Origin: a virus
IMG/VR virus record: IMGVR_UViG_3300030508_000011
Coordinates: 1 to 36,924 of that record
Reading direction: 5' to 3' (one strand)
DNA: 36,924 nt
In this document: positions 1 to 12,588 of the stretch, piece by piece
Numbering within the stretch: the first letter of the stretch is position 1
Layout: each line of letters opens with the position of its first letter
Program-made: the position numbers and the translations under genes
Notes under the pieces: generated by a model
Told to the model about the DNA's origin: nothing
What the model saw: the letters and a program-made list of their open reading frames with translations, nothing else
Database searches by the model: none

Positions 1-127
1 TCAGCTTTGCCTGAATATCTAATGGCGCGATTCAAGATTCCAATTTCCTCCCTCGTCAGCACGACACAAGTCTCGCGGACATGGCGGCATCCGGCTAGGA
101 ATGCACGGGCACGGATTGCTTCTATTT
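1..127. repeat. Terminal overlap of circular assembly, left copy
   Basis: Bases 1-127 are identical to 36798-36924. The exact length of 127 equals a k-mer size commonly used by de Bruijn assemblers, so this is most likely the overlap left when a circular contig is written linearly. It lies inside a small leftward gene and not in a control region, which also argues against a true packaging repeat. The non-redundant genome is therefore 36,797 bp, either circularly permuted or closed through longer unresolved ends. Confidence 0.93.
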
Positions 128-200
128 GATCGCGAAAAAAGTTACCGCCTTCATTGTCTAATGATTCGGCATATATCTCCGCAGCCTCTTGGTCGGTCAT
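1..200 (-). CDS. Hypothetical protein, 5' part (gene crosses the circle junction)
   Basis: The ATG is at 198-200 and overlaps the TGA of the preceding gene (ATGA). The frame is open to base 1. On the circle it continues from 36797 down to a TGA at 36737-36739, giving an intact 86-aa protein. It begins MTDQEAAEIYAESL, is rich in Ala, Glu and Arg, mostly helical in appearance, and has no signal or membrane segment. I do not recognise the family. It belongs to the tightly coupled string of small leftward genes. Its first codons share a 16-bp exact repeat with 529-544. The window simply cuts the gene; it is not broken. Confidence 0.75.
   Translation of the reverse strand, partial: MTDQEAAEIYAESLDNEGGNFFRDQIEAIRARAFLAGCRHVRETCVVLTREEIGILNRAIRYSGKA
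183..198. repeat. 16-bp direct repeat, copy 1
   Basis: The sequence agcctcttggtcggtc is exactly repeated at 529-544. On the minus strand it contains AAGAGG. Here it codes residues TDQEA of the junction gene. The second copy provides the ribosome binding site of the gene starting at 523. Confidence 0.8.
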
Positions 201-523
201 GGTTTACTCGCAATTCTTTCTCTGATTTTGATGTCATCTTTGTGGCTAAATACTTCCTTCAAGTAAGGCTCCTGATCGTACCAACTATCATTGCAATCGG
301 TTTGCATGTGCACATTTTTGTGCTCTCGATGTGTCCATAAAAACCACAAGCCACGAGCCGCCCAATACCCGCCCTTAAATACTGGGTCATTAAAACCTGT
401 TTCCGCACATTCAACACCGACAGGGGGTCTGCGGCATCCAATCACATGCGAAAACTCGTATGCTTTGTGTAGATCGATATATTCTTTACATTCGCCGCAA
501 ACTAAATAGTGCTCAACGCCCAT
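197..523 (-). CDS. Conserved phage hypothetical protein with CxxC motif
   Basis: This 108-aa protein begins MGVEHYLVCGECKEYIDLHK. The start at 523 is preferred over longer in-frame starts because AAGAGG sits just upstream of the ATG, and the longer forms would run into the preceding gene. The CGEC pair at residues 9-12 and later cysteines (about residues 30, 39 and 77) could hold zinc or form a small cysteine-rich fold. A Trp-rich centre (GGYWAARGLWFLW) is typical of small soluble proteins I have seen in environmental phages, but no function is known to me. The gene ends in an ATGA overlap with the next leftward gene. Confidence 0.75.
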   Translation of the reverse strand: MGVEHYLVCGECKEYIDLHKAYEFSHVIGCRRPPVGVECAETGFNDPVFKGGYWAARGLWFLWTHREHKNVHMQTDCNDSWYDQEPYLKEVFSHKDDIKIRERIASKP

Positions 524-561
524 TATGAAGCCTCTTGGTCGGTCGGGGTTGGGGTGTTCAT
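523..561 (-). CDS. Minicistron, 12 codons, coupled at both ends
   Basis: The ATG at 559-561 overlaps the TGA of the upstream gene (ATGA), and the TAA at 523-525 overlaps the ATG of the downstream gene by one base (TAATG). The peptide is MNTPTPTDQEAS. Its TDQEA is encoded by a 16-bp sequence also found at the start of the junction gene (183-198). The frame fills the whole gap between two real genes, so it may carry ribosomes from one gene to the next and contains the AAGAGG site for gene 523. It may also be the remnant of a duplicated gene. I do not claim a functional peptide. Confidence 0.4.
   Translation of the reverse strand: MNTPTPTDQEAS
529..544. repeat. 16-bp direct repeat, copy 2
   Basis: This is the exact match of 183-198. 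It lies in the minicistron and carries the AAGAGG ribosome binding site for the leftward gene starting at 523. Confidence 0.8.
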
Positions 562-743
562 AATTCACCCATGCGTTGAAAATCCTTGTCATTGTTATGT
601 CGGAAAGGAATCGGTTCTTTACCAGCGTCAACCCACCAATGCTGAAATGTCTTGGACCAAGTGCAGACAACCAATCGAGCAGATGGCTTATGCAGAAATA
701 CAATTAAAGCAGGAATTTTAAATTTTGTTCGTGGTCTTTTCAC
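558..743 (-). CDS. Small basic hypothetical protein
   Basis: This 61-aa frame starts with GTG at 741-743, with AGAGGGG a few bases upstream on the minus strand. The protein is basic and contains the string HKPSARLVVCTWSKTFQHWW. It has one short hydrophobic stretch but no clear membrane span. It is coupled upstream by GTGA to a 12-codon frame and downstream by ATGA to another. I do not recognise it. The coupling and the good ribosome binding site argue that it is a real gene and not a shadow. Confidence 0.6.
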   Translation of the reverse strand: MKRPRTKFKIPALIVFLHKPSARLVVCTWSKTFQHWWVDAGKEPIPFRHNNDKDFQRMGEL

Positions 744-778
744 TTCGTCCCCTCTCGTATCTGGCTTGATGTTTTCAT
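740..778 (-). CDS. Minicistron, 12 codons, coupled at both ends
   Basis: The ATG at 776-778 overlaps the TGA of the DUF3850 gene (ATGA), and its TGA at 740-742 overlaps the GTG of the next gene (GTGA). The peptide MKTSSQIREGTK repeats the C-terminal SQIREG of the protein encoded at 1068-1418, through a 20-bp exact DNA repeat. The simplest reading is a leftover gene end kept because it supplies a ribosome binding site (GAGAGGGG) and translational coupling. Confidence 0.4.
   Translation of the reverse strand: MKTSSQIREGTK
749..768. repeat. 20-bp direct repeat, copy 1 (RBS module)
   Basis: cccctctcgtatctggcttg is repeated exactly at 1074-1093. On the minus strand both copies place GAGAGGGG immediately before a start codon: the GTG at 743 here, and the ATG at 1068 for the other copy. 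Confidence 0.85.
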
Positions 779-1068
779 GGTTTTACCGGCAGGAGGCTGA
801 ACACAACCTCGTCATGGGCGAGCGGTAAAACATATCCAATTCGAAACTCTAATTTGCGGCCCGTATAACCTTTCTCGGTTTCTCCAGAGGATGCGCCTTC
901 CGGCAGTTCTTCATCCGTCATAGGTCTCATTTCTGGACTCCATTCATGTAGAACAACTGAGTCGTCGAATTGAAATCCACGATCAGAATTATCTCTGCGT
1001 TCAAAAGTCTTTGAGCCATCTCGAACGCGCTCAAAATAACATGGCCAACATTTTAATTCGTGTCTCAT
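775..1068 (-). CDS. DUF3850 (ASCH-like fold) domain protein
   Basis: The 97-aa protein opens MRHELKCWPCYFERVRDGSK, followed by a KTFERR string, a FQFDDSVVLHEW motif and GYTGRKLEFRIGYVLP. This is the order typical of DUF3850 proteins, small phage and plasmid proteins related to the ASCH/PUA-like RNA-binding folds. A nucleic-acid or modified-base binding role is suspected for that group but not shown. ATG 1066-1068 is preferred over the adjacent GTG 1069-1071 because GAGAGGGG is then 5 bases away. The gene sits in the leftward small-gene series, overlapping the stop of the preceding gene and coupled to a minicistron after it. Confidence 0.85.
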   Translation of the reverse strand: MRHELKCWPCYFERVRDGSKTFERRDNSDRGFQFDDSVVLHEWSPEMRPMTDEELPEGASSGETEKGYTGRKLEFRIGYVLPLAHDEVVFSLLPVKP

Positions 1069-1418
1069 CACAACCCCTCTCGTATCTGGCTTGCTTGTTT
1101 GAGTGCTTCTCTGAGCCCTTTAAAGCCGTCACTCATTTTAACAAACGGATTTTCCTGCTGAATATCACAAGGTGCCAATATAATAGCAATAGCATCCTCC
1201 AGCAACTTTGCGACTTGGCGTTCGCGAGATAATTCGTCGGCTGCCGTTTGCCAGTGGTTAAACGCATTCTGATGTGAAAATTTCTCCTGATCTAATTTGA
1301 TTCGTTCCTCGTCCAGGAGTTTGAACAAAAATTCAATGGGGCTGTTGTGAATGAATGGCTTATTCTTGATCCAATCCTCACGAATCTCGCGCTCTTTGTC
1401 AGATGTGGCGTCGGTCAT
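1068..1418 (-). CDS. Hypothetical protein, helical and charged
   Basis: The protein has 116 aa with many Glu, Lys, Gln and Arg residues in its first 75. It probably forms helices, perhaps a short coiled coil around residues 33-75 (LLDEERIKLDQEKF). There is no signal or membrane segment, and I do not recognise the family. The start ATG overlaps the stop of a 21-codon frame upstream (ATGA). Its last seven codons (SQIREGL) form one copy of the 20-bp repeat and contain the ribosome binding site of the DUF3850 gene, so its translation should be coupled to that gene. Confidence 0.7.
   Translation of the reverse strand: MTDATSDKEREIREDWIKNKPFIHNSPIEFLFKLLDEERIKLDQEKFSHQNAFNHWQTAADELSRERQVAKLLEDAIAIILAPCDIQQENPFVKMSDGFKGLREALKQASQIREGL
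1074..1093. repeat. 20-bp direct repeat, copy 2 (RBS module)
   Basis: This is the exact match of 749-768. It is both the end of the coding region 1068-1418 and the ribosome binding site for the gene that starts at 1068. Confidence 0.85.
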
Positions 1419-1480
1419 GGGTCCACTTTTTCGTAAGTCATATTAAAAAGGTAACTATCCCTTGACGACAAGTGTTTCAT
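1415..1480 (-). CDS. Minicistron, 21 codons, coupled at both ends
   Basis: The apparent 58-bp gap between two genes is exactly one open frame. Its ATG at 1478-1480 overlaps the TGA of the upstream gene, and its TGA at 1415-1417 overlaps the ATG of the downstream gene. The peptide begins MKHLSSRDSYLF and ends MTYEKVDP. There is no convincing ribosome binding site, so initiation would depend on coupling. It is the longest of four such frames in this block. Confidence 0.45.
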   Translation of the reverse strand: MKHLSSRDSYLFNMTYEKVDP

Positions 1481-1788
1481 AAATCCTCGGTTGCCGCGTA
1501 CTTGACGTAACTTCTTCGTAAGTTCTGCAATCCACTGTTTAAATGTCCCATCGGGTTTTCTGTGTTCTTCTCAAGCAGCAATGCGACTGCCGTAACTAAA
1601 TCATTCGCCCGCTCTCGCTCGATGCCGCGCTCTACGCCGAGTTTTATAAAGCTGCGAACATGAAGTTGATTACCGCCAATGCGCAGGTGCTCTTGATAAT
1701 CGTCCCATTCCTTCTGCGCATAGGCCTCGGCGGCTTCGCGGTCAGCGTCTGTGAGATCTACTCCTGTAATCTGACAATTGATGATCAT
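1477..1788 (-). CDS. Hypothetical protein
   Basis: This 103-aa protein begins MIINCQITGVDLTDADREAA and is acidic and Ala/Glu-rich in its first half (AEAYAQKEWDDYQEHL). A hydrophobic helix follows around residues 62-73 (NDLVTAVALLLE), but it is too short for a membrane span. I do not recognise the family. The start ATG overlaps the TGA of the 56-aa gene upstream (ATGA), and the stop overlaps the following minicistron. It is a soluble small early protein by position. Confidence 0.7.
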   Translation of the reverse strand: MIINCQITGVDLTDADREAAEAYAQKEWDDYQEHLRIGGNQLHVRSFIKLGVERGIERERANDLVTAVALLLEKNTENPMGHLNSGLQNLRRSYVKYAATEDL

Positions 1789-1955
1789 GGTTTTTCCCGT
1801 ATTTTCGTTTCCGTCTTAACAGCCCATTTTTTAAGCTGATTAAACTTCGGCGGAAGATCTTTGATATCTGGCTTCTTTGGTTCTCCGCCATTTGCCCGCC
1901 ACTTCGCATACATTTCAAGGAGCTCTTGCCGTGCTGTTTTCTTAGATGGGATCAC
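1785..1955 (-). CDS. Small basic hypothetical protein (56 aa)
   Basis: This short frame fills the space between the alanine-repeat gene and the next small gene. GTG at 1953-1955 overlaps the upstream TGA (GTGA), AAAGG lies 7 bases upstream, and its TGA overlaps the next ATG. The protein begins MIPSKKTARQELLEMYAKWR and is very basic (about 12 Lys and 4 Arg) with a GGEPKKPDIKDLPPKFNQL stretch. It could be a small nucleic-acid binder, but that is only a guess from composition. Coupling at both ends and the binding site make it a credible gene. Confidence 0.65.
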   Translation of the reverse strand: MIPSKKTARQELLEMYAKWRANGGEPKKPDIKDLPPKFNQLKKWAVKTETKIREKP

Positions 1956-2845
1956 TTAGCAGCCTTTAAAAGTTCGATAAGTTTCTTGCTCTGAGCGATC
2001 CGCCATTCAGTTCTTTTAGCATTAGCAGCATTAGCAGCATTAGCAGCATAAGCAGCAGCATCAGCAGCATAAGCAGCAGCATTAGCAGCAACAGCAGCAG
2101 CAGCAGCAGCATTAGCAGCAACAGCAGCATTAGCAGCAACAGCAGCAGCAACAGCAGCAGCATAAGCATTAGCAGCAACAGCAGCAGCATCAGCAGCATA
2201 AGCATTAGCAGCAACAGCAGCAGCATCAGCAGCATAAGCAGCAGCATCAGCAGCATAAGCAGCAGCATTAGCAGCATTAGCAGCAGCATTAGCAGCAGCA
2301 TTAGCAGCATTAGCAGCAGCATTAGCAGCAGCATTAGCAGCATTAGCAGCATTAGCAGCAGCATTAGCAGCAGCATTAGCAGCAGCATCAGCAGCCCGCC
2401 AATCCTCTTCCGCTACAGTCGCTCCAGATAATTGAAGCGTGTAAAGATCGGCGACCGATTGAATCGCGGATATTTGAGTATTAGTTCGGGCGAATTGAAT
2501 AACTCCATAAACCGCATCGGTCAGAATCCAAACCGCGAATGCGGGCCAAACATTTGAAAGATCGGCTCCTGGTTTTATTGCCTCTAAAAATCTGCGTGGC
2601 CAGGTCTTCGCTAATTCATTTGGAATATTCTCAAAAATTCCATCCTCGAGACGAGCGAGGATTCGAGGAATCCCCAGCTCGGTTTCGAATTTCGAGTGTT
2701 CGTTTCCATGGATAGTACAACCCACGGCGCATCCTTTGCCGTTTTGCCAGTAATGGCCTTTGACAATTTCGTCGGCCTTTTCGTGCATGGTTACGCGGTC
2801 AAGGTACTGCTTCTTAATTTTCGGATCATTGTGGAATGCGATCAT
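1952..2845 (-). CDS. Alanine-repeat phage protein with conserved N-terminal domain
   Basis: The 297-aa protein has three parts. Residues 1-148 are a folded-looking domain with WQNGKGCAVGCTIHGNEH, ETELGIPRILARLED and TWPRRFLEAI; I recognise this combination from phage and environmental proteins of unknown function. Residues 151-276 are almost pure alanine, broken every 3-4 positions by Asn, Asp, Tyr or Val. Residues 277-297 are a basic tail (KRTEWRIAQSKKLIELLKAAK minus its end). In an alpha helix the non-alanine residues would form one stripe, as in alanine-rich ice-binding helices, but such a function is not shown. AGGAAA precedes the ATG. The repeat is encoded by uniform triplets, so its length probably varies between strains. 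Confidence 0.85.
   Translation of the reverse strand: MIAFHNDPKIKKQYLDRVTMHEKADEIVKGHYWQNGKGCAVGCTIHGNEHSKFETELGIPRILARLEDGIFENIPNELAKTWPRRFLEAIKPGADLSNVWPAFAVWILTDAVYGVIQFARTNTQISAIQSVADLYTLQLSGATVAEEDWRAADAAANAAANAAANAANAANAAANAAANAANAAANAAANAANAAAYAADAAAYAADAAAVAANAYAADAAAVAANAYAAAVAAAVAANAAVAANAAAAAAVAANAAAYAADAAAYAANAANAANAKRTEWRIAQSKKLIELLKAAK
2018..2395. repeat. Trinucleotide repeat tract coding the alanine array
   Basis: This is 378 bp of almost uninterrupted triplets. On the coding (minus) strand every alanine is GCT, and the interruptions are only AAT, GAT, TAT or GTT, each close to GCT. Blocks of 9, 12 and 21 bases recur many times. All length steps are multiples of three, so the frame is kept. 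The uniform codon use indicates recent growth by slippage or unequal exchange. Confidence 0.95.
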
Positions 2846-2865
2846 TTTATATTTCCTATTTTTGG

Positions 2866-3333
2866 TTATGAATAAACTTCATTTTTTGGCAAAACGTCTC
2901 TTAATGCTTTTAAGTCATCATTATATGATTGGACTTCGTTATCCGTGAGGTCGCGTTCACCGACTCGGTGCTCTTCCAATACATTTTCAATATTGATAAT
3001 ATCTTTGGATAGTTCTTGGTATGTTTTCCTATTCGTCTTCCATAAGGTAGAGAGACCGTTGAAAGCTTGAGCAAGAGCCTCTTCTAATTCATCAGAAACA
3101 TGGCGGATCTCCTGAAAATTACCGGCAGCATCTGTCAAAACTAAAATAGCTTTCTCAACATCCTTTTCATGAATCTTATAGTCAGATAGATCAATAGCGT
3201 TGTTCATTAAAATTCTAATTACCGGAGTAACGTCTCTTCCCTGGACTCGGATTGTTCTTTTCCCGCTACATAGTTCTCGGTGGAAATTAACGAAGGCAGC
3301 TCTCAGCATTTTATAAGCTTCAAAAGGCGTCAT
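2866..3333 (-). CDS. Hypothetical protein, helical
   Basis: The protein is 155 aa, beginning MTPFEAYKMLRAAFVNFHRE. It looks all-helical, with acidic and amphipathic stretches such as DVEKAILVLTDAAG, SDELEEALAQAFNGL and IINIENVLEEHRVGERDLTDNE. No catalytic motif, signal or membrane span can be seen. It lies between the alanine-repeat gene and a small gene whose stop overlaps its start (ATGA). Position suggests an early gene; the function is unknown. Confidence 0.7.
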   Translation of the reverse strand: MTPFEAYKMLRAAFVNFHRELCSGKRTIRVQGRDVTPVIRILMNNAIDLSDYKIHEKDVEKAILVLTDAAGNFQEIRHVSDELEEALAQAFNGLSTLWKTNRKTYQELSKDIINIENVLEEHRVGERDLTDNEVQSYNDDLKALRDVLPKNEVYS

Positions 3334-3626
3334 TCAAAACTCCCATTGTTTGAAGGATAGACAGTTTCATCGTAAGTGTATTTGGCCCCTGGTGTTCCTT
3401 TTGGCGGAATCTCTTCGAGACGATCCGGTGACTCTTGACCATTCTCATCCGTAGACCATTTCACTACGGTTTTAATTAGATTTAAAAAGGTACCCTCATC
3501 GGCTGGTTTTCCGTTTGTGTATTTATGTCCATCGAGAGTGATGTAGTACTGATCGGTGCTGTAGTTCCACTCTTGGATGAGATGATCATTTATGTAGATC
3601 GAGCTGTGGGGATTCATTGTGTCCAT
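3330..3626 (-). CDS. Hypothetical protein
   Basis: The 98-aa form beginning MDTMNPHSSIYINDHLIQEW is chosen because GGAG lies 5 bases before this ATG, and it then starts 11 bp after the upstream gene ends. A longer in-frame start at 3668 would overlap that gene. The sequence suggests a small beta-rich fold (INDHLIQEWNYSTDQYYITL) followed by a Pro/Glu-rich C-terminus. I do not recognise the family. It is coupled to the next gene through ATGA. Confidence 0.65.
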   Translation of the reverse strand: MDTMNPHSSIYINDHLIQEWNYSTDQYYITLDGHKYTNGKPADEGTFLNLIKTVVKWSTDENGQESPDRLEEIPPKGTPGAKYTYDETVYPSNNGSFE

Positions 3627-3637
3627 AAGATCTCCTA

Positions 3638-4399
3638 TCAAAAAGGTAATTCGGATTCCGTTGGCCATGGCGGAGTTTCAAACGATTCGTGGCTATTGAA
3701 TTTCGTGTCTAATATTTCATCGATTGGATCTATGTTAGGCTTTTTTTTAGCGTTGAAGTAGAGTTCAGCTTTTTGAGTGAGGGTGAGTGCTGGTCCTTGC
3801 ACTTTTTGATTTTTTTCGTCAGCCATTTTTTTAATATCGTTAATGTACTTTCTAAGATCCGTGTCGCCGAAATCTTTAAGAGCCGTGCCTTTGTGTTTCC
3901 CAAAATCGATCACATAATCAGCAGCATAAGAGCTAGGGCGTTCAGGATGGGCGAACTTCTCTGGGACTTTGAATGGTGTTTTCGATTGAGGCGCGACTGA
4001 TTCAATAATTTTAGTAGCAGTATTTGATTGAACTGGAGCATCAGCCAACCTCTCGCCTTCCTCAAGTTCGTGAGTGAAGGCTGTACCATAACCGCAAAGA
4101 GCCAATGCGCGACCTACGGCTCCAGTGGAAGCTTTCTCATCAGCGTCTTTGAAATGGGCATAATCTTCTCGCTTAACGGCATCGGCTAGGATGGAATATA
4201 ACCCATCCGGATTTCGAAGCTCGATTGTCGCTCTGTAAATCACAAAATCTTTTTCTCTGTGAACGCACTCTGTGGTGATCTTTCCCAATGGATGTTCTTC
4301 ACGAAACCACACCACTCGGTGGGTTACTTGAAGATAGTCTTTTCCTTGAAGACTCATTAATGGAAGTTCAGTGCCTTTTGGTGTTCGGAATGTCTTCAT
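3638..4399 (-). CDS. Rad52-like single-strand annealing protein with ExoX-C-like domain and SSB-like tail
   Basis: The 253-aa protein has an N-terminal domain (about 1-110) with the string EKASTGAVGRALALCGYG at 88-105. This signature is typical of the Rad52/Erf-type annealing proteins of phages, which pair single strands during recombination and replication. A central segment (about 162-195: VIDFGKHKGTALKDF) resembles the small domain found at the end of ExoX-type exonucleases. The last residues, PPWPTESELPF, resemble the acidic tail with terminal Pro-Phe by which bacterial SSB recruits partners. The gene lies next to the replication genes and overlaps the Xre regulator gene (ATGA). A plain single-strand binding protein is an alternative. 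Confidence 0.65.
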   Translation of the reverse strand: MKTFRTPKGTELPLMSLQGKDYLQVTHRVVWFREEHPLGKITTECVHREKDFVIYRATIELRNPDGLYSILADAVKREDYAHFKDADEKASTGAVGRALALCGYGTAFTHELEEGERLADAPVQSNTATKIIESVAPQSKTPFKVPEKFAHPERPSSYAADYVIDFGKHKGTALKDFGDTDLRKYINDIKKMADEKNQKVQGPALTLTQKAELYFNAKKKPNIDPIDEILDTKFNSHESFETPPWPTESELPF

Positions 4400-4605
4400 T
4401 TTTCCTCCGGGAATAGTTTGTTCTCAGTGACACCGAGAGATTTACAAAGCTTAAGGCGAGTTTCTTCTCGAGAAGGAGCGAATCCTTGACGAGCATTATA
4501 GATAGTCGTGACCGATACCCCACTTAGCTTTGACAGCTGTAAATGGCCATTCGGTCTATGACGTTGAATCCAGTTCTCAATGATTTCGTAGTTTGATGTT
4601 CTCAT
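4396..4605 (-). CDS. Small Xre/Cro-type helix-turn-helix regulator
   Basis: In this 69-aa protein residues 21-42 (LQLSKLSGVSVTTIYNARQG) fit a helix-turn-helix of the Xre/Cro class. Further helices follow (ETRLKLCKSLGVTENKLF), as in the five-helix lambda repressor fold. It has no added domain, so it would be a simple DNA binder, probably a dimer. It is the only clear transcription regulator in the window and is therefore the first candidate to bind the palindromes in the divergent control region at 6633-6733. It is transcribed in the same leftward unit it may control. Confidence 0.75.
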   Translation of the reverse strand: MRTSNYEIIENWIQRHRPNGHLQLSKLSGVSVTTIYNARQGFAPSREETRLKLCKSLGVTENKLFPEEK

Positions 4606-4652
4606 GCCTTAAGTCTAGCTCAAGATGAGATAAAAATAAATGTTTTTTTTAT

Positions 4653-4976
4653 TTAATTATCGTAAGATTCAGGCCTGCCGTATGCTCCGAATTCAATAAA
4701 AATGTTATCTATCTTATGGATAGCTGAAAGTGATGTATCAGGTTTATATGTCCAGAATTCATAAAATGAGCCTTTCACGATCTTATTACAGATCCGCAAA
4801 AGCTCCCGACCCTCTTCCCAATGTAGCCATTCCGGGTTATCTATGAGCATCTGGATCACAATTGCCGACCAAAGCTCAGAATCTATTACACCATTCCGGT
4901 TGAAGACCACGATCAAGCTCTGCAAACCCTTCTTTTCTCGTAAGATTGCTTCTTCCGACTTTGTATCTTTCATCAT
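4653..4976 (-). CDS. Hypothetical protein overlapping the helicase gene by 101 bp
   Basis: The 107-aa protein begins MMKDTKSEEAILREKKGLQS and continues with hydrophobic helical and Trp-rich stretches (ELWSAIVIQMLID, EWLHWEEGRELLRI, SFYEFWTYKPD). Its first 33 codons overlap the 3' end of the helicase gene in another frame. A start further in, near residue 43, would reduce the overlap but would cut into the smooth N-terminal helix. The binding site before 4976 is weak (AAGAAAGA). Re-initiation or a frameshift from the helicase are both possible. The family is not recognised. Confidence 0.6.
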   Translation of the reverse strand: MMKDTKSEEAILREKKGLQSLIVVFNRNGVIDSELWSAIVIQMLIDNPEWLHWEEGRELLRICNKIVKGSFYEFWTYKPDTSLSAIHKIDNIFIEFGAYGRPESYDN

Positions 4977-5835
4977 ATGAGTTCTTTCTTGGATTAAAAC
5001 TAAGTCTACCTAGGAACCTTGTGACGGTCCCATTGGTTCTATTTTTTGGAATACGGATATAAGTTTCATAGCAGCCGTCGTCAAGCCTGCTCCCTGACGA
5101 TATCGTGATAACTTTCGTTGCAATCTTAGTTAAATCGCTTGAGCCATGGAATTCATCCATACCTGGAACAAGATCCTCATTTGCTTTATCTCTCTTCCTT
5201 AGATGGGCAACGAGTATGATGGGCTTTCTCTCCTCTAGAGCGAGCGTCCTAACTGTCTTGGCTAGCGTTTTCATTGCTCTATTTTCATTATCATCATCAA
5301 AATCGAAGTAATGGGCGTGATCTATAATGAAAAGATCTGTTTCAGGCGCATGACGGACAATATTCTCGATTAGGTCATTAATAGAGAAGCCTGAGGTTTT
5401 ATAGAAGATGAAAAAGTCCTTATAGGCGTTGACCATAAACTCTGTTGCGCGATCTTCGTACTCTTGAAGGGGTTCAATAAAGTCGCCGAGCAGCCATCGA
5501 TCGAAGCTAAAATTTGAAATATTTGGGCGATTAGGATCGGCATAAAACATCGCAGCAATAACTTGATATTTTAGGCGCCGTTCAATTTCATATTCTTCGG
5601 CCTCCAAAGCGAGGAAATGAACCCTCTTTCCGGCCGAAATGTTCGCAAATGCGATATTACAGCATAACTGTGTTTTTCCTACCCCGCTAGACGCTCCCAG
5701 AAGCACCAGGTCGCACGCACCAATGCCAAGAAGGGCATCGTCAAGGTAGCTGATCCCGAAGCTCCTGAGGCCTTTACGGGCGTTTTTTCGACTGCTTAAT
5801 TCTTCGGCAATATTCTCAGAAACGGATTTAAACAT
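4876..5835 (-). CDS. DnaB/RecA-fold replicative helicase-type ATPase
   Basis: The 319-aa protein carries Walker A GASSGVGKT at 47-55 and a LALEAE stretch at 75-80 that fits the catalytic glutamate region. Walker B is DLFIIDHAHYF at 167-177, and a later HGSSDLTKIATKVI segment matches the DnaB C-terminal core. It lacks the DnaB N-terminal domain, so it resembles the short phage helicases and RecA-like ATPases. It should unwind DNA at the phage fork, loaded by the protein encoded 3 bp upstream. The last about 33 codons overlap the next gene out of frame. KaiC/RadA-like ATPase is the alternative; the replication context favours helicase. Confidence 0.82.
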   Translation of the reverse strand: MFKSVSENIAEELSSRKNARKGLRSFGISYLDDALLGIGACDLVLLGASSGVGKTQLCCNIAFANISAGKRVHFLALEAEEYEIERRLKYQVIAAMFYADPNRPNISNFSFDRWLLGDFIEPLQEYEDRATEFMVNAYKDFFIFYKTSGFSINDLIENIVRHAPETDLFIIDHAHYFDFDDDNENRAMKTLAKTVRTLALEERKPIILVAHLRKRDKANEDLVPGMDEFHGSSDLTKIATKVITISSGSRLDDGCYETYIRIPKNRTNGTVTRFLGRLSFNPRKNSYDERYKVGRSNLTRKEGFAELDRGLQPEWCNRF

Positions 5836-5838
5836 AAC

Positions 5839-6528
5839 TCACCACGTCACAACGTCGGCTGAAAGGTCGCGTGGCGGCAGCAAATTTATATAATCTTGCC
5901 ACGGTCCGTCAAGTTTGGCGCCGAGAAAAGTTGAGAAGTGTTTTATGAACCTGGATTCGGTTTTCAAATCCTGAACTTCGCGGAAATAGTTTTTTACCGC
6001 AAGATCGAGCTTCGCATAAATTTCTGGGTTCATCGGGTTGCGATGAAGAAATTTCATTCCGGCCGCTTTCCCGCGTTTGAGTGGATAATTTTCGTACAGC
6101 GCGTCAAAATCAAAATCCCCCACACCCCCTAAAGAATCCTTTTCCTCTTCCTTCTCCTTAGCCCCATTAGATGGGGCGTGTACGGACCGTGCAAGGCCCT
6201 TCTTTTTTGTAAAGTGATTTACTTTTGAAAGGATAGATTTATGAACTGGGTTCTCAGGATTGAGGTCGCCATATTGAAAATCAATGAAGCTTTTGATGAA
6301 GATTTGACGATCAGAAAACCATGTTAATTCATCGCCAAAAGTAGCCACTAATTCTTCTTTTGTGACCTCTTCCTGGATATGAAAAGATAACAATTTTAGA
6401 TTTGCATCCCATATCCCCGCATAGTCGCAATTATCGCAAATATAGAGCCATACAAGCTTCATTTTTATCGAAAGCTCGCTGAAATTATTCTTTTTCCACT
6501 TGTCTGTATCAGTAAATCGTTTTGCCAA
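5839..6528 (-). CDS. Phage replication initiator / helicase loader-like protein
   Basis: A TTG start at 6526-6528 is chosen. AAGGAG lies 8 bases upstream, and the resulting N-terminus (MAKRFTDTDKWKKNNFSEL) matches the usual beginning of this phage family. A longer frame to 6615 has no binding site. The 229-aa protein has an N-terminal winged-helix-like segment (LVWLYICDNCDYAGIWDANL) typical of replisome-organiser/O-like proteins. An acidic linker follows, then a C-terminal part (FDALYENYPLKRGKAAGMKF and FIKHFSTFLG) also common in these proteins. It would bind the origin and help load the helicase encoded just downstream. It is the first gene of the leftward unit. Confidence 0.75.
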   Translation of the reverse strand: MAKRFTDTDKWKKNNFSELSIKMKLVWLYICDNCDYAGIWDANLKLLSFHIQEEVTKEELVATFGDELTWFSDRQIFIKSFIDFQYGDLNPENPVHKSILSKVNHFTKKKGLARSVHAPSNGAKEKEEEKDSLGGVGDFDFDALYENYPLKRGKAAGMKFLHRNPMNPEIYAKLDLAVKNYFREVQDLKTESRFIKHFSTFLGAKLDGPWQDYINLLPPRDLSADVVTW

Positions 6529-6620
6529 ATGTCGTACTCCTTGTTGATATATAGGAGTCGAATTGTTGACAGGTGGCATATAAGGATATAGCCTTCGAGA
6601 CAATTCGATCCGCAAATTGA

Positions 6621-6648
6621 ATTAACCCTGGGCTTGGCCCCAAGTCAA
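6621..6648 (-). promoter_or_regulatory. Putative leftward early promoter
   Basis: On the minus strand TTGACT (6648-6643) is separated by 16 bp from GTTAAT (6626-6621); that is 5/6 and 4/6 matches to the sigma-70 consensus. It lies about 95 bp before the TTG start of the replication gene. The match is moderate and promoter prediction by eye is weak, but there is no other unit to read from here and the direction fits. Confidence 0.4.
6633..6644. promoter_or_regulatory. Candidate operator, 12-bp palindrome in leftward promoter spacer
   Basis: CTTGG-CC-CCAAG is a perfect 5-bp inverted repeat. It lies between the putative -35 and -10 of the leftward promoter, within a short GC-rich island in otherwise AT-rich DNA. 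A protein bound here should block leftward transcription. The small Xre regulator is the obvious partner, but binding is inferred only. Confidence 0.45.
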
Positions 6649-6681
6649 ATACCCGGGGTCTGTTTTTTCTTTCATCCCGAC

Positions 6682-6710
6682 TTGACATAGTCTTTTCTGA
6701 GTTGTTGAAT
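6682..6710 (+). promoter_or_regulatory. Putative rightward late promoter
   Basis: TTGACA (6682-6687) is a perfect -35. After 17 bp comes TTGAAT (6705-6710), a 4/6 match for the -10. The next rightward gene starts 38 bp downstream. It would drive the whole rightward block up to at least the terminator after the capsid gene. The weak -10 fits a controlled promoter. Confidence 0.5.
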
Positions 6711-6733
6711 TCTTGTAACAGTTACAAATTCAA
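6705..6733. promoter_or_regulatory. Candidate operator, nested palindrome over the rightward -10
   Basis: The core TTGTAAC-A-GTTACAA (6713-6727) is a perfect 7-1-7 inverted repeat. It is flanked by TTGAAT (6705-6710) and ATTCAA (6728-6733), which are also exact complements of each other. The dyad covers the -10 and the probable transcription start, the classic place for a repressor site. The half-site TTGTAAC differs from the CTTGG half-site of the leftward palindrome, so two proteins may be involved. Confidence 0.6.
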
Positions 6734-6747
6734 AACTTGGAGATAAG

Positions 6748-6954
6748 ATGGCAATGACAGTAGCGGAAGTATTGGCTTACCTCGCACCCCTCGCGCCGGT
6801 TCTTGAACCAGAAATTCTTTCCCTCGAAGGCGCTGGTATCGCTGAGCTCCAAACAGTAATCGCTGGCGTCGCCTCTCCCGACTTGAAGCTCTTACTCCAA
6901 GCTTTGGCTGGCGCAGTAGATTCTTTTGCTAAAGCGGAAGTAGCTAAGCTGTGA
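6748..6954 (+). CDS. Small hydrophobic/amphipathic protein, first gene of the rightward unit
   Basis: The protein is 68 aa with GGAG 5 bases before the ATG. It is rich in Ala, Leu, Val and Glu (VLAYLAPLAPVLEPEIL, AELQTVIAGVASPDLKLL) and looks like two or three amphipathic helices, not a clean membrane span. It lies directly ahead of a similar small protein, a lipoprotein and the endolysin. A role in lysis, such as holin or antiholin, is possible by position only. It overlaps the next start (GTGA). I do not recognise the family. Confidence 0.65.
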   Translation: MAMTVAEVLAYLAPLAPVLEPEILSLEGAGIAELQTVIAGVASPDLKLLLQALAGAVDSFAKAEVAKL

Positions 6955-7343
6955 GTGGAATGGATCTTCCGGGGGAGGTTGCTCTTCCGGTAAATCCTAT
7001 TTCTCAAGCTATCGATAATATCTTAAATATTTTAATACAGTCAGGTGAGGCGGCCGCAAAGACATATATCACAGCCCAAGTACCTATACTTGAGGCCCCC
7101 GTGGTCGATGTATTTACGAATTCAATCCTGGATGCATTAACGCAAGCCATTGAGAATCAAACAGCAAAGATTGTGGCAACGGTTGTAAATGATCTTCAGA
7201 CTCAAATGCAGAACTCTACAGTTTTATCATCTGCAAACGCCCTCAGTGCCGCGCAGGCTCAAGGAGATAAAGGTGCCATTCAGGCAGCAACTACAAATCT
7301 TGTTAATGCTTACCGCAATCTCGGGGCTTTTAACGGGGTGTAG
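6951..7343 (+). CDS. Helical hypothetical protein of the lysis region
   Basis: The 130-aa protein starts at GTG 6951-6953, overlapping the previous TGA; an ATG at 6960 is the alternative. It is Ala/Gln/Asn-rich and helical (ISQAIDNILNILIQSGEAAAK, ILDALTQAIENQTAKIVATV) with no charged-flanked membrane span. The 3' end overlaps the lipoprotein gene by 71 bp in another frame, and its codons contain that gene's AAGGAG site. It may form part of the lysis group, but nothing identifies a function. Confidence 0.6.
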   Translation: MSGMDLPGEVALPVNPISQAIDNILNILIQSGEAAAKTYITAQVPILEAPVVDVFTNSILDALTQAIENQTAKIVATVVNDLQTQMQNSTVLSSANALSAAQAQGDKGAIQAATTNLVNAYRNLGAFNGV

Positions 7344-7620
7344 TGTTGAGATAAAGGATAAGACCTTTTATGGATCCCTCGGGACTTCTGGCGCGGCTGT
7401 GTTCCATGCTTTATCTAACAGTACTTCTGTTATCGATAATACTCAGTGGAATGCTGATTGGAACAATCTTTCTAACCCAATGATCTGTATGTCATCGAGT
7501 GACTTTACTGAGATGAAAAAAGAAGAAGAAAATCTTTGTTCATATTCGGGTAACTGCACACAAGCCCAAGTCTCTCAAATTAAATCTTTTATTAAACGAA
7601 TAGAGGGCATGAGGAAATGA
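7273..7620 (+). CDS. Phage lipoprotein, possible outer-membrane spanin
   Basis: A GTG start at 7273 is chosen because AAGGAG lies 6 bases upstream. It yields a textbook lipoprotein signal: MPFRQQ, a hydrophobic core LQILLMLTAISG, then the lipobox LLTG before Cys23. The mature part of about 93 aa has three further cysteines (near residues 71, 89 and 95) that could form a disulfide. It is followed by the muramidase gene (ATGA overlap), so a role in the last step of lysis, disrupting the outer membrane, is likely by context. Sequence alone does not prove an outer spanin; an exclusion lipoprotein is the alternative. A longer frame from 7189 lacks a binding site. Confidence 0.7.
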   Translation: MPFRQQLQILLMLTAISGLLTGCSVEIKDKTFYGSLGTSGAAVFHALSNSTSVIDNTQWNADWNNLSNPMICMSSSDFTEMKKEEENLCSYSGNCTQAQVSQIKSFIKRIEGMRK

Positions 7621-8204
7621 TTGAAGGCGTAGATATCTCACATTGGGAAAACGTTTCTAATTGGCAATTGGTAAAACAGAACCAGCATTTCGTCGGAGTG
7701 AAAGTAACTCAAGCCTTAGATTACATTGATCCAAAATTCAAAGATGAATGGGCGAATTGCAAGGCGAATGGATTAAAGCGCATCGCTTATCATGTTTTGG
7801 ATATGAACCAAGATCCGATCATTCAGGCGGCTTACTTCACTAATGCCATTGGACAGTTTGATCCAACTGATGCATTTGCTCTCGATTGGGAACAGTCGGT
7901 GAATAAATCGATTGATGGTGGAGCAGACGCATGCATGAAATTCTTCGCCGCTGTTGAGAAAGTCACAAACAAACCATGTCTGCTCTATGGAAGTTTCGCT
8001 GAAACGCAGGATATGAACTTCCCGCCTGAAGCAGCTCAAAGACCATTGTGGCTCGCCCGATATGGAGTAACAGCCACAGTTTCACCTGCTCCTTGGAAGA
8101 ACTGGACCTTATGGCAATACACTGAAAATGGACAGGCCGCAGGAATTGGAAGCTGTGATCTGAATTATTTTAATGGCACCCTAGACGATCTCAATAACCT
8201 GTAA
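7617..8204 (+). CDS. Endolysin, GH25 family muramidase
   Basis: The 195-aa protein begins IEGVDISHWENVSNW, the first beta strand of glycoside hydrolase family 25, with Asp6 in place. FALDWE at 87-92 supplies the Asp and Glu of the active-site DxE. LWLARYG and WTLWQYTENGQAAGIG, followed by DLNYFNG, are the usual C-terminal strands. The enzyme cuts the MurNAc-GlcNAc bond in peptidoglycan. It is a single catalytic domain of usual size with no wall-binding repeat and no signal peptide, so a holin should release it. It is transcribed near the front of the rightward unit. Confidence 0.95.
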   Translation: MIEGVDISHWENVSNWQLVKQNQHFVGVKVTQALDYIDPKFKDEWANCKANGLKRIAYHVLDMNQDPIIQAAYFTNAIGQFDPTDAFALDWEQSVNKSIDGGADACMKFFAAVEKVTNKPCLLYGSFAETQDMNFPPEAAQRPLWLARYGVTATVSPAPWKNWTLWQYTENGQAAGIGSCDLNYFNGTLDDLNNL

Positions 8205-8212
8205 GGAATCAA

Positions 8213-8461
8213 ATGGGCTCAATGAAAATTAAGCAGTTCAAAGATGTAGTTGCGGAAGCAAAAGCCAAGATCCCCCGTGATCAAAAAGCTATTGAGCAAG
8301 ATTATTCGAACGCGGCCGCAGCGGTTGGCGATCAGCATTTCAAAATTGAAATTGAACGAGCAAAACTCAATCAATTGACAATGAAGCTCTCTGAATTCAA
8401 AGATGAGTTTGATCATTGTGTTAAATGGAATAAAGACAAAGCCGAAAAGGAAAAATCTTAA
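8213..8461 (+). CDS. Hypothetical coiled-coil protein
   Basis: The protein is 82 aa with AAGGA 5 bases before the ATG. It is highly charged and helical (KDVVAEAKAKIPRDQKAIEQDY, FKIEIERAKLNQLTMKLSEFKDEF), probably a short coiled coil. It has no signal or membrane segment, and no family is recognised. The stop overlaps the next ATG (TAATG), so the two small genes between endolysin and terminase are coupled. Confidence 0.7.
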   Translation: MGSMKIKQFKDVVAEAKAKIPRDQKAIEQDYSNAAAAVGDQHFKIEIERAKLNQLTMKLSEFKDEFDHCVKWNKDKAEKEKS

Positions 8462-8778
8462 TGCTTACGACTCTTCCGATTACGAGAGAAGAATTTGAAA
8501 AAATGGTTAACGTGGCTTGTGATGGAGCTGGTGTACCGATGGGCGAGGATAGTATTATTGCTGCAATCAACTATTTTCATTCGCTGGACCGTGATGAATG
8601 TAAGTTCGATCCAGATATTCTCTCAAATTATCTTCGTCGGGCTTATAGCAATCAAATGACATTTGATTACACCACTGAGATCAGACACAAACGCGAAGCA
8701 GAACGTGCAGAAAAGATGGCAGAAGGTCAACCCGCAACACCGACCTTGGTACCAGTTGCAAACTCAGCGGAGCATTGA
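8461..8778 (+). CDS. Hypothetical protein
   Basis: This 105-aa protein begins MLTTLPITREEFEKMVNVAC and ends in a Pro/Ala-rich tail. A segment EDSIIAAINYFHSLDRDECKFDPDILSNYLRRA suggests three helices. AAAAGGAAAAA precedes the ATG. It overlaps the upstream stop by one base. I do not recognise it; its place before the terminase genes is typical for small phage genes of unknown role. Confidence 0.65.
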   Translation: MLTTLPITREEFEKMVNVACDGAGVPMGEDSIIAAINYFHSLDRDECKFDPDILSNYLRRAYSNQMTFDYTTEIRHKREAERAEKMAEGQPATPTLVPVANSAEH

Positions 8779-8791
8779 TTTAATTTCTCAT

Positions 8792-9175
8792 GTGAAATGC
8801 AATCATTCGATATTTAATGAAAGCTGTTCTCATTGCAGAGATCTTCGGTCGAAATGGTATAAGAAATTGAGTAAATCATTTTCAGACATTGAAGATCACC
8901 GCTATGCAGAACCGCCTCTAAAATCATGGCATGGGCATATATTCAAGCATTTGACTGATCATGAATTCGAGGACAAGTACGAATATAATCACAAGGCCGA
9001 GAAGCTCCTGAGAACATTTAACTTTGAGAATGACACCCATAGGCGGATCTGGGAACTTCATATAGAAGGATTAACAAGCCCAGAGATAGAAAAGCAAATC
9101 AGACGTATGAAAAATGCGAAAAAGCAACTTACCATTAGAAACATCATCAAAGATTTAGAGCGTGAAGTCGTATGA
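8792..9175 (+). CDS. Cys-cluster phage protein with C-terminal helix-turn-helix-like segment
   Basis: The N-terminus has KCNHSIFNESCSHCRDLRSKWY: Cys/His residues spaced like a small zinc site, followed by WYKKL and FSDIEDH. I recall this combination from many phage genes near the terminase. The C-terminal 45 residues (RIWELHIEGLTSPEIEKQIR) resemble a sigma-region-4-like helix-turn-helix, so DNA binding is plausible. The frame is open back to 8663, but that would overlap the previous gene. The GTG at 8792 gives a protein starting just before the Cys cluster, though without a good binding site; an ATT at 8783 is also possible. The start is uncertain. Confidence 0.65.
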   Translation: MKCNHSIFNESCSHCRDLRSKWYKKLSKSFSDIEDHRYAEPPLKSWHGHIFKHLTDHEFEDKYEYNHKAEKLLRTFNFENDTHRRIWELHIEGLTSPEIEKQIRRMKNAKKQLTIRNIIKDLEREVV

Positions 9176-9798
9176 TCGTAAAGCTCCGTCCATTCAATAA
9201 AGACACAGACTCAGGCTTCATCATCGATTCGATGGCTAAGGCCCTATATAAAGAACAATTTCCAGATGCTAAGAGATATAAGAAATCTTGGTTTGAATCT
9301 ATGCATAAAGAGATATTGTATAGAATAGAAAATAGCCAAGTACGCATAGCATGCAGCCATGAGGACGACGAGTTCTTATTGGGTTATGCCATTGATGATG
9401 CTTTTGTATTTGTAAAAGAAAACTATCGCAAACAAGGTATTGCTACACTGCTTTGTGAAAATATTAAAATGAGCGATGAATCTGGATATATGACCAAATT
9501 AGGAAAGAAAATCATTCAAGCCAAGGAGGCACACTTGACGAACCAAGAACAGCCAGAAGATAATAAAGCAATTGCTACCAAGAACATCGAGAAGCTTATC
9601 AAGTCTGGTTTCCCAATTAAGGTAGCTAAATTCGATCCAGCACTCACCTCTGGTTATGCCAATGCTGAATATGAATTCAATATGGCCTCGACCAATAAAC
9701 TTAGAGTCCCTGACGAGATGTACTTAACTCCAATGGGGGTTATTGTTGTCCAGAACGGGAAAGTATTCGGCGGCACAGCCTACTCTTGGTCTGTATGA
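9172..9798 (+). CDS. GNAT-like acetyltransferase-fold phage protein
   Basis: The protein is 208 aa. AFVFVKENYRKQGIATLLCENI at about 77-98 fits GNAT motif A, where (R/Q)xxGx(G/A) binds the acetyl-CoA pyrophosphate (here RKQGIA, 86-91). The first line, MIVKLRPFNKDTDSGFIIDS, is the usual first strand and helix. The C-terminal half (about 110-208) has no recognised domain. Similar proteins are often found just upstream of phage terminase genes, but their substrate is not known. The start overlaps the upstream stop (ATGA). Confidence 0.7.
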   Translation: MIVKLRPFNKDTDSGFIIDSMAKALYKEQFPDAKRYKKSWFESMHKEILYRIENSQVRIACSHEDDEFLLGYAIDDAFVFVKENYRKQGIATLLCENIKMSDESGYMTKLGKKIIQAKEAHLTNQEQPEDNKAIATKNIEKLIKSGFPIKVAKFDPALTSGYANAEYEFNMASTNKLRVPDEMYLTPMGVIVVQNGKVFGGTAYSWSV

Positions 9799-9830
9799 CG
9801 CTGGACCGTCAAAGAAACAATTGAATAACT

Positions 9831-10286
9831 ATGTTCAAGCCTGGGAATAAACTATCCACAGGTCGCGCTAAGGGTGCCGTTAATAAGCGCACAATTGAGT
9901 TTAGAGCGACTTTAGAGCGAGAAGGCTTCGATCCTGCCATGGCCATGCTAGAGATCTATAAAGAGGCAAAGAAGACATATGACAACTATGCCGTTATATA
10001 CGACCAATTGATTGCCAATAAGATCAAAGCTGGCGATCCATTTCCGGTTGAAGATAAGGCCGATAAATATCTGAAGATTGCGGCCGATATGGTTAAGGAT
10101 ATCTCGAGCTATTGTTATCCAAAGCTTAAATCAGTTGAGCAGACTAAACAGAATCCTCTGGATGACATGACTGCAGAGCAGAAGCTTGAAACGATGAGAG
10201 AAGCAGTAAAGATGATGGAGCGTGAAGTTGGAGATTCATCTAAACGAATTGGTCCAGGAAGCGATAAGGATAACGGCGAGTCCTAA
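9831..10286 (+). CDS. Putative small terminase subunit
   Basis: The 151-aa protein begins FKPGNKLSTGRAKGAVNKRT. This Gly/Lys/Arg-rich start recurs in the small terminase candidates of many podo- and siphoviruses. A helical body follows (ATLEREGFDPAMAMLEIYKEAKKTY; ADKYLKIAADMVKDISSYCY) with a charged tail. It would recognise the packaging site and regulate the large subunit, whose gene overlaps its 3' end by 65 bp. The family is very divergent, so the call rests on position and general make-up. Confidence 0.7.
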   Translation: MFKPGNKLSTGRAKGAVNKRTIEFRATLEREGFDPAMAMLEIYKEAKKTYDNYAVIYDQLIANKIKAGDPFPVEDKADKYLKIAADMVKDISSYCYPKLKSVEQTKQNPLDDMTAEQKLETMREAVKMMEREVGDSSKRIGPGSDKDNGES

Positions 10287-11688
10287 CTTCATCCTCGATA
10301 ATTTCCTATTCAAGGAGCAAATAGACTTTGTTAGAGATCCTGCTCGTTTTGCTACTGCCGTCTGTAGTGTGCGTGCTGGCAAGACTACCGCATGCGCGGC
10401 CGACCTTATTGATACTGCTCTTTCGATGCCTGGCACTACTGGCTTGTACATTACTCTGGCTAGGTCTAGCGCTAAGCGCATCGTTTGGCCTGAGCTTCAT
10501 AAGATTGTAAGAGAATTTAAGATTGAGTGTTCGTTCAATGAAGTAGAGCTAGCGATTAAGTTTCCAAATGGATCTGTAATCTATTGCTCAGGTGCGAATA
10601 CTGAGGCAGAAACAGAGAAACTCAGAGGGTTATCAAATGTTGCATTGGTTTACATTGATGAGAGCCAGGCTTTTAGATCGCATCTCAAAGAACTCGTTGA
10701 AGATGTTCTCGTCAAACGACTCTACGATACAAATGGACGGTGCCGGCTTATTGGAACTCCTGGACCAATTCCCTCCGGATACTTTCATGATTGTAGCAAA
10801 AGCTCCCAATGGGCACATCATGCTTGGACCCTCCACAACAATCCTTGGATTGAGCGAAAGTCTGGGCTCACAGTTTCCCAACTTATCCAGCAGGACATGG
10901 ATCGAAAAGGCGTTACAGTCGATGACCCAAGCATACAAAGAGAGTGCTTTGGTCGATGGGTCCTCGACTCCCAATCCTTAATCCTTCAATACGATGCGGG
11001 TAAAAATCATTATGAGACGCTGCCTAAAGGATCTTGGAAGTATATTCTTGGTATGGATTTCGGCTATAACGATGCTGATTCTTTTAGTGTTCTGGGGTGG
11101 ACTGATGTTTCACCAGATACTTATTTGGTTGAAGAAGTAATCAAAGAGAAACAAACCTATGAACAAATGGTCAAAAACTTCGAAGAGCTCCACGCCAAAT
11201 ACCACTTCCATAAAGTCAAAGCCGATCCCGGTGGCGGTGGGAAAAAGCTCATCGAGTCGCTCAGGGCAAGATACCCACTCCCATTCGAGTCGGCAGAAAA
11301 GACAGAAAAAGTTGCCAACCTCAAAATCTTAAACAATGCTTTAAGGACTGGACGATTTAAGGCTCGTAAGGATTCAAGGTTTGCTCAGGATTGTAATCTC
11401 TTGGAGCGAGATCTTGATAAGTCCACGCCAGACAAAATAGTAATCAAAGGACACTCTGATGCTGTTGATTCGGTTTTATATCCTTTCAAAGAATCTCCAG
11501 CTTACTATTACAAGCCACCAGTGGAAACCCCGAGACCGGGCACGCCTGGTTATTCGGATTGGCAAGCGAAAGAGTTTGAACGTGGAACTATGGATCGCTT
11601 AAATAGGGAACAGAAGGATAAGAAGTCTAAGGATCTATTGGATTGGAATGTTGGTTCAGATATGACGCCTGACTGGAACCGCTGGTGA
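10222..11688 (+). CDS. Large terminase subunit (ATPase and nuclease)
   Basis: The protein is 488 aa. Walker A is CSVRAGKTT at 48-56, Walker B is ALVYIDE at 141-147, and the coupling motif GTPGP is at 178-182. The RNase H-like nuclease has acidic residues in LGMDFGYND (Asp279), in KADPGGGG (Asp335) and in HSDAVDSVLY (Asp413 or Asp416). It pumps DNA into the procapsid through the portal and cuts the concatemer. The start is uncertain: GTG 10222 is the longest frame but its GGAG is too close; a TTG at 10249 is an alternative. It is followed at once by a 56-aa gene (GTGA overlap). Confidence 0.95.
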   Translation: MKLEIHLNELVQEAIRITASPNFILDNFLFKEQIDFVRDPARFATAVCSVRAGKTTACAADLIDTALSMPGTTGLYITLARSSAKRIVWPELHKIVREFKIECSFNEVELAIKFPNGSVIYCSGANTEAETEKLRGLSNVALVYIDESQAFRSHLKELVEDVLVKRLYDTNGRCRLIGTPGPIPSGYFHDCSKSSQWAHHAWTLHNNPWIERKSGLTVSQLIQQDMDRKGVTVDDPSIQRECFGRWVLDSQSLILQYDAGKNHYETLPKGSWKYILGMDFGYNDADSFSVLGWTDVSPDTYLVEEVIKEKQTYEQMVKNFEELHAKYHFHKVKADPGGGGKKLIESLRARYPLPFESAEKTEKVANLKILNNALRTGRFKARKDSRFAQDCNLLERDLDKSTPDKIVIKGHSDAVDSVLYPFKESPAYYYKPPVETPRPGTPGYSDWQAKEFERGTMDRLNREQKDKKSKDLLDWNVGSDMTPDWNRW

Positions 11689-11855
11689 ATGAAGATGAGG
11701 TTCTCTTTAAAGTTAGAATGAGCAAGGATAGCAAAACAGCTTATCTCGAACTTGAGTCCAAAGAAGTAATCACATATGGGATATTGATCGATGCGTTGAT
11801 AGATCTTGCTGATCAATTGAGTAAAGATGAGAATAGTACGGACGACAGACATTGA
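11685..11855 (+). CDS. Small acidic hypothetical protein (56 aa)
   Basis: GTG at 11685-11687 overlaps the terminase stop (GTGA), and the TGA at 11853-11855 is directly followed by the next ATG. The protein begins MNEDEVLFKVRMSKDSKTAY and has an amphipathic helix (YGILIDALIDLADQL) and an acidic end. It is short and not recognised, but the coupling on both sides and the absence of any other frame make it a credible gene. Confidence 0.6.
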   Translation: MNEDEVLFKVRMSKDSKTAYLELESKEVITYGILIDALIDLADQLSKDENSTDDRH

Positions 11856-12065
11856 ATGAGTCATAGATGTCCATTTTGTGGTTATGGCTGTCGGAGTTTT
11901 AGTGAACAACACAATCATAAATGCGAACCAGAAGCTAAGATGACGGGATTGCTTGCATGGCTTCCAAAATCTCCTGAGGAGATCAACGTTCGCGATGTAA
12001 CATTCTTGGATGAGATCTACTTCTGGCCAAGACCAATCAAATGGAATAAAGAAAAGAAGAAATAA
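11856..12065 (+). CDS. Small zinc-ribbon-like hypothetical protein
   Basis: The protein has 69 aa. MSHRCPFCGYGCRSFSEQHN holds Cys5, Cys8 and Cys12, followed by His19, His21 and Cys23. This spacing could bind one zinc ion in a C2H2- or ribbon-like finger. The remainder (PEEINVRDVTFLDEIYFWPR) is not recognised. It starts immediately after the previous stop and precedes the tRNA gene. DNA or protein binding is likely for such a finger, but nothing indicates the target. Confidence 0.65.
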   Translation: MSHRCPFCGYGCRSFSEQHNHKCEPEAKMTGLLAWLPKSPEEINVRDVTFLDEIYFWPRPIKWNKEKKK

Positions 12066-12069
12066 TTGT

Positions 12070-12142
12070 TGCCGGATAGTTGAGTTGGTACAACGTCGCC
12101 CTGTTACGGCGAATATCGGTGGTTCGAGTCCATCTCCGGCAG
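12070..12142 (+). tRNA. tRNA-Asn (anticodon GUU)
   Basis: It is a complete cloverleaf of 73 nt. The acceptor TGCCGGA pairs with TCCGGCA at 12135-12141, and the D stem GTTG pairs with CAAC. The anticodon stem TCGCC/GGCGA closes the loop CTGTTAC with GTT at 12103-12105. The T arm is GGTGG-TTCGAGT-CCATC, and the discriminator is G. The 3' CCA is not encoded. It reads AAC and AAT codons, which are abundant in the Asn-rich fibre and tail genes downstream. It is inserted in the late unit between terminase and portal genes. Confidence 0.95.
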
Positions 12143-12198
12143 ATTCCCAGTCATCACTAATACTTACAAACCTAGACTAACGCGCCATTCATCTATGA

Positions 12199-12586: not shown

Positions 12587-12588
12587 CC

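Follow-up and report, generated by a model that had tools for sequence, protein, structure and literature searches.

Two doubly coupled minicistrons in the leftward operon of a phage genome are probably leftover neighbour-gene ends beside inserted genes

Introduction

In artificial two-cistron expression designs, a minicistron is placed ahead of a gene so that the stop of the short frame overlaps the next start. Compared with such designs, the minicistrons described here are natural, are coupled at both ends and are apparently a by-product of gene insertion; our literature search for natural phage minicistrons under that exact word found none. The termination-reinitiation coupling known from ATGA and GTGA junctions (PMC10666635, PMC6728339) offers a likeness in the 4-nt or 1-nt overlaps found at both ends of these frames and at most junctions of their operon, but the cistrons concerned here have only 12-21 codons, two of them are made up largely of sequence repeated from the ends of adjacent genes, and reinitiation at them would be a prediction. 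In reporter experiments in E. coli and Haloferax, termination-reinitiation was almost lost once the gap reached about 20 nt, and the final 15 nt of the upstream frame were enough to sustain it (PMC10666635), so that a frame of 12 codons could in principle bridge a gap.

Short repeats next to small phage genes have also been described. The start-associated sequences (SAS) of mycobacteriophages (PMC3203893) resemble one of the two repeats analysed below, D2, which is a short repeated Shine-Dalgarno block immediately upstream of starts; SAS, however, form a genome-wide family, whereas D2 has two copies only and shares no consensus with the second repeat, D3, which has one copy at a start and the other in coding sequence, so that a repeated asymmetric block upstream of many starts is not what we find. 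T4-type PeSL gene shuffling, as far as it is discussed in PMC4503421, likewise involves repeats beside small early genes that come and go, but the repeats at our locus are gene ends, and no cassette of promoter and stem-loop was seen there.

Results

The DNA analysed here, referred to as the window, comes from an uncultured phage and is the whole 36,924-nt virus record IMGVR_UViG_3300030508_000011 of IMG/VR. Its terminal 127 nt are identical at both ends, indicating a phage genome that is circular or was circularly assembled. A single leftward gene run extends from about 6615 to 1 and over the circular junction to 35036, with one of its genes, 36737..200 (minus strand), spanning the junction, while the rightward part carries SU10-like capsid and portal genes, and among these rightward genes lies the sole Rfam match in the window, a tRNA gene (12070-12142, plus strand). 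Most junctions of the leftward operon are 4-nt overlaps. An earlier note had reported four small frames in this operon, three of them filling apparent spacers with overlaps at both ends, and all four were recovered on the minus strand at the positions and with the overlaps described (Table 1). The gaps 524-557, 744-774 and 1419-1476 are filled exactly by frames of 12, 12 and 21 codons, and at both ends of each the stop and start codons overlap on the same strand by 4 or 1 nt, as termination-reinitiation calls for. A further frame, at 36259-36300, is absent from that note and overlaps a repeated spacer element, AACGCT...GACA. This element follows the upstream stop in three successive gaps (36276-36296, 35939-35961 and 35627-35647, minus strand), was matched 5 times in the window, where 0.5 matches were expected, could form a short hairpin in its copy in gap 35603-35649, and is possibly regulatory. 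Two of the minicistrons contain the Shine-Dalgarno sequence of the gene that follows, namely GAGAGGGG for gene 558-743 inside minicistron 740-778 and AAGAGG for gene 197-523 inside minicistron 523-561; RNA structure in the three spacers was no better than in shuffles. As separate observations on the same operon, genes 1785-1955, 775-1071 and 197-523 (minus strand) have a common terminal 9-mer, AAACCATGA, across the stop/start joint (at 1793, 783 and 205), and gene 1952-2845 (minus strand) contains at 2016-2400 a long tract of GCAGCATTA-type repeats encoding an Ala/Asn/Asp/Tyr-rich segment (AANAANAAYAADAAA...).

Table 1. Coordinates of the short frames, the direct repeats and the genes around them, and of gene-length-spaced repeats in other phage loci
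Feature	Position	Strand	Remarks
Minicistron, MNTPTPTDQEAS then stop	523..561	-	ATGA at entry, TAATG at exit; read as probable orphaned head of gene 36737..200
Minicistron, MKTSSQIREGTK then stop	740..778	-	ATGA at entry, GTGA at exit; read as probable orphaned tail, either of gene 1068-1418 or of a paralogue since lost
Minicistron, MKHLSSRDSYLFNMTYEKVDP then stop	1415..1480	-	ATGA at entry and exit; GAGG before start
Fourth frame, VTSFDMLRWGDDEI then stop	35361..35405	-	GTGA at entry, coupled upstream only; stop 14 nt inside gene 35036-35374
Further frame, MTTLTSIDRVRKE then stop	36259..36300	-	ATGA-coupled upstream; stop 4 nt short of next ATG
Gene 558-743	558..743	-	Between both putative scars; the overlaps of the two minicistrons have their outer ends at its start and stop
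D2 copy A	1074..1100	-	In gene 1068-1418, at the 3' end; stops 5 nt ahead of ATG 1068 of gene 775-1071
D2 copy B	749..775	-	Directly after stop of gene 775-1071, within minicistron 740-778
D3 copy A	529..550	-	Within minicistron 523-561; stops 5 nt ahead of the ATG of gene 197-523
D3 copy B	183..204	-	Covers the stop codon of gene 197-523 and the opening codons of gene 36737..200
Neighbour gene	1068..1418	-	Tail SQIREG copied in minicistron 740-778
5' part of junction-crossing gene 36737..200	1..200	-	Head TDQEA copied in minicistron 523-561
Candidate insert, DUF3850 (PF12961) gene	775..1071	-	Pfam E=6.5e-17; bracketed by D2
Candidate insert, single gene	197..523	-	Bracketed by D3
L003, 17-nt repeat	6419 and 6631		Two successive gene starts; includes ribosome-binding site and start codon
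L006, 19-nt repeat	8902 and 9140		One gene length apart
L007, 20-nt repeat	16216 and 16533		Tails of two tandem paralogues
L025, gene-length-spaced repeat			Simple GGC-rich tract

The earlier note had argued that overlap at both ends in three of three consecutive small gaps is unlikely by chance. The count is correct for that stretch but selective, since nine gaps in the leftward operon reach at least 20 nt, three of them filled by exact minicistrons, two by frames coupled upstream only, and four ended by TAA with no overlapping frame (4606-4652, 2846-2865, 35923-35963 and 35603-35649); where the gap follows a TGA stop, ATGA or GTGA stands at its start in 5/5 cases. The four TAA-ended gaps break the chain, which contradicts the proposal that ribosomes are handed along the entire leftward message. 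Under a null model in which gap lengths were kept and gap bases shuffled, so that P is conditional on the gap lengths, 0.37 exact frames were expected with random gene-end contexts (P of at least three, 0.0014) and 1.03 with the real ones (P = 0.0074). Three annotated phages bearing DUF3850 had exact frames in 0/36 gaps of 20-130 nt, and the comparison of 3/9 in this operon with 0/36 gives P = 0.006 (hypergeometric, calculated by hand). With automatic gene calling in the window and 12 related or search-derived loci, three exact frames were found in 69 gaps against 1.7 expected, indicating that the excess belongs mostly to this operon and does not reflect a general enrichment. The excess is thus real (P about 0.001-0.007) but modest, for a pattern picked after it had been seen.

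Apart from the Ala-rich tract, the longest direct repeats of the genome are D2, which extends over 20 nt exactly or 27 nt at 89%, and D3, which extends over 16 nt exactly or 22 nt at 91%, the remaining pairs in the whole genome measuring 14-15 nt and lying about 1.7-14 kb apart. In first-order random operons, an exact repeat of at least 16 nt occurred in 0.7% and one of 20 nt in 0/300. Each pair brackets exactly one gene, D2 the DUF3850 gene and D3 gene 197-523, for which we sought a family match and obtained none. Moreover, in each pair one copy forms, in frame, the end of a genuine neighbouring gene and the other accounts for the greater part of a minicistron, and since both copies are read in the same codon phase, the peptides SQIREG and TDQEA are shared between neighbour and minicistron. 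When either pair was collapsed in silico, insert and minicistron disappeared together and intact coupled genes remained: collapse of D2 left a 117-aa gene that ends in SQIREGTK before its stop and overlaps gene 558-743 by 4 nt (GTGA), and collapse of D3 left a 91-aa frame, MNTPTPTDQEAAEIYAES..., starting from the ATGA of gene 558-743. Two genes are therefore flanked by short direct repeats in the manner of single-gene insertions, one copy lying in a seemingly pre-existing gene that collapse restores. Both copies of D2 are also Shine-Dalgarno blocks at identical spacing, and their similarity runs on into the following start codons (9/2000 shuffles were as good); the D2 sequence was absent from viral_contigs. 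Minicistron 1415-1480 has no scar repeat of the D2 or D3 type, and a candidate for that role, D5 (13/14 nt, out of frame), was within chance.

A scan of viral_contigs with the five genes that surround the spacers gave no homologue whose spacers could be compared, two of the spacer-flanking genes matching the phage's own contig only and a third giving one distant match of 40%; nor did viral_contigs, genome_contigs and phage tblastn yield usable orthologues of genes 197-523, 558-743, 775-1071, 1068-1418, the gene at 1477 or gene 36737..200. Orthologues of the DnaB-like gene 4876-5835 led to four phages, L006-L009, with operons of like style. In two of these, coupled frames of 24-34 codons fill or nearly fill gaps of early operons (L006 at about 12148-12250 and 19788-19860, L008 at about 16500-16590), and by their sequence they resemble single-transmembrane micropeptides. 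Such longer, membrane-type frames indicate that tiny coupled frames do exist in the group. Gene-length-spaced repeats of at least 16 nt were rare, with four in 15 other phage loci (Table 1), and those in L003, L006 and L007 are suggestive only.

Discussion

The repeats that bracket one gene each, their common codon phase and the clean collapse are most simply explained if minicistrons 740-778 and 523-561 are orphaned gene ends, and we think it likely, though well short of certain, that they are scars left by the insertion or replacement of single genes. This explanation was framed only after the repeats had been seen. It would start from an ancestor in which the tail of gene 1068-1418, or of an adjacent paralogue, abutted gene 558-743 through a GTGA overlap, and in which gene 558-743 was in turn followed directly, through an ATGA overlap, by the head of gene 36737..200. 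Each site would then have received one gene, either by insertion or by replacement of a paralogue's body: the first site the DUF3850 gene, the second gene 197-523. A short stretch of the neighbour remaining on either side of the insert would have become the direct repeats. At one end, the tail and head orphaned in this way would have retained the old overlap, and at the other they would have gained coupling to the new gene, so that they could now be read as complete tiny cistrons that also provide the Shine-Dalgarno sequence of the next gene, and a ribosome reinitiating at ATGA would translate the minicistron as a by-product and might be handed on. Since the repeat copies carry the Shine-Dalgarno sequences of genes 558-743 and 197-523, there is sufficient reason for their persistence. 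For D2, whose copies are Shine-Dalgarno blocks at equal spacing with similarity running on into the start codons, the doubling of a ribosome-binding block is a partial alternative to this history. We infer the direction, insertion, because no relative or population variant lacking the inserts was found, the only other contig that reaches the region, L004, ending at window position 1175; the recombination mechanism is likewise putative. The micropeptides that the earlier note had offered as one possibility find no support in these two frames, most of whose sequence repeats the tail or head of an adjacent gene and also carries the downstream Shine-Dalgarno sequence; the two are probably genome scars, perhaps still passing ribosomes on, rather than new peptides.

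Other routes to the same arrangement were considered. Insertion of a transposon or a homing endonuclease gene did not fit, as positions 1-1960 contained no inverted repeats and no gene for transposition or homing was recognised in either insert, one a DUF3850 gene and the other encoding an unmatched protein; the same absence, like that of a scar repeat at the third minicistron, also weighs against the insertion history. The idea that an entire unit of 325 or 346 nt had been duplicated in tandem was rejected, the similarity ending within about 25 nt of the repeat; similarity between the DUF3850 protein and the product of gene 558-743 was weak (37/1000 shuffles). The likeness by eye of gene 3638-4399 to a single-strand annealing protein received no support from Pfam or from a PDB sequence search, and we therefore make no argument from a recombinase.

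A different emphasis, compatible with an origin as scars, is that the minicistrons are functional relays in which ribosomes reinitiate at ATGA and are handed over to the downstream start across gaps that would otherwise leave the genes uncoupled, the overlaps and the open frame being kept by selection. We regard this as possible but rather doubtful. The double overlap exceeds both chance and the small baseline from annotated phages, 4-nt overlaps prevail at the other junctions, and coupling fails over gaps near 20-38 nt and needs only 15 nt of upstream frame (PMC10666635); in addition, gene 1068-1418 has no clear Shine-Dalgarno sequence and may need coupling. Genes 558-743 and 197-523, however, are each preceded by a minicistron that already holds a Shine-Dalgarno sequence for them, which makes a relay unnecessary there, four other gaps do without such frames, related operons show little excess, and the outer overlaps of 740-778 and 523-561 are expected in the collapsed ancestor anyway. 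If any of the frames is a true relay or a micropeptide, the strongest candidate is minicistron 1415-1480, which falls outside the scar explanation: it has no scar repeat, has GAGG before its start and precedes a gene without a clear Shine-Dalgarno sequence; for this frame alone, a micropeptide may be entertained tentatively.

That dense overlap-type gene ends and short gaps produced the frames by chance, with D2 and D3 as duplicated ribosome-binding blocks, appears unlikely. About one exact frame is indeed expected from the actual gene-end contexts, the D2 copies stand 5 nt ahead of ATG 1068 and GTG 743, and phages do repeat such blocks, as in the mycobacteriophage sequences (PMC3203893). Yet three or more frames have a probability of 0.001-0.007, D3 copy B is coding sequence rather than a ribosome-binding site, and both pairs bracket whole genes in the same codon phase. 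Similarly improbable, and applicable to 523-561 only, is a start of gene 197-523 further upstream, at an in-frame GTG or ATG in the 3' end of gene 558-743, with the minicistron a mere out-of-frame reading and no gap at all. The frame of gene 197-523 is open to 703 (197-703, minus strand), through gene 558-743, which leaves its start uncertain, and the automatic caller picked an upstream GTG, but AAGAGG lies at a good distance from ATG 523 and the alignment with the only relative, L003, begins at residue 8 of the short form, leaving the extension unsupported. Least probable of all is that the minicistrons are real micropeptide genes with functional products of 12-21 residues, for although GAGG precedes the ATG of 1415-1480, and coupled frames of single-helix membrane type are exactly fitted in related early operons (L006 MNLFEYAVMIVGFIIFGAYGLLAGAIWLGLRFRR and VSDAAVIVLAYLGITCFSIWRITR) or close to it (L008 MIEHIILGVSLSINVFGLIAFLIITGMAR), the window peptides are shorter and not hydrophobic, and two of them are mainly repeats of neighbour gene ends.

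Considering minicistrons as leftover neighbour-gene ends beside inserted genes is, we believe, the new element of this analysis. One might go further and see in them selected insertion adapters, insertions being accepted mainly where the scar keeps ribosomes flowing and 1415-1480 being an older adapter whose repeat has decayed; we consider this extension a long shot, but if it were true, minicistrons would be a readable record of gene gain. If the scar explanation is right, short frames in the gaps of phage operons should be compared with the ends of neighbouring genes before they are called micropeptides. Such frames could then locate single-gene insertions in phages without sequenced relatives, and they would offer a simple test of whether coupled operons constrain the sites at which genes can be inserted.
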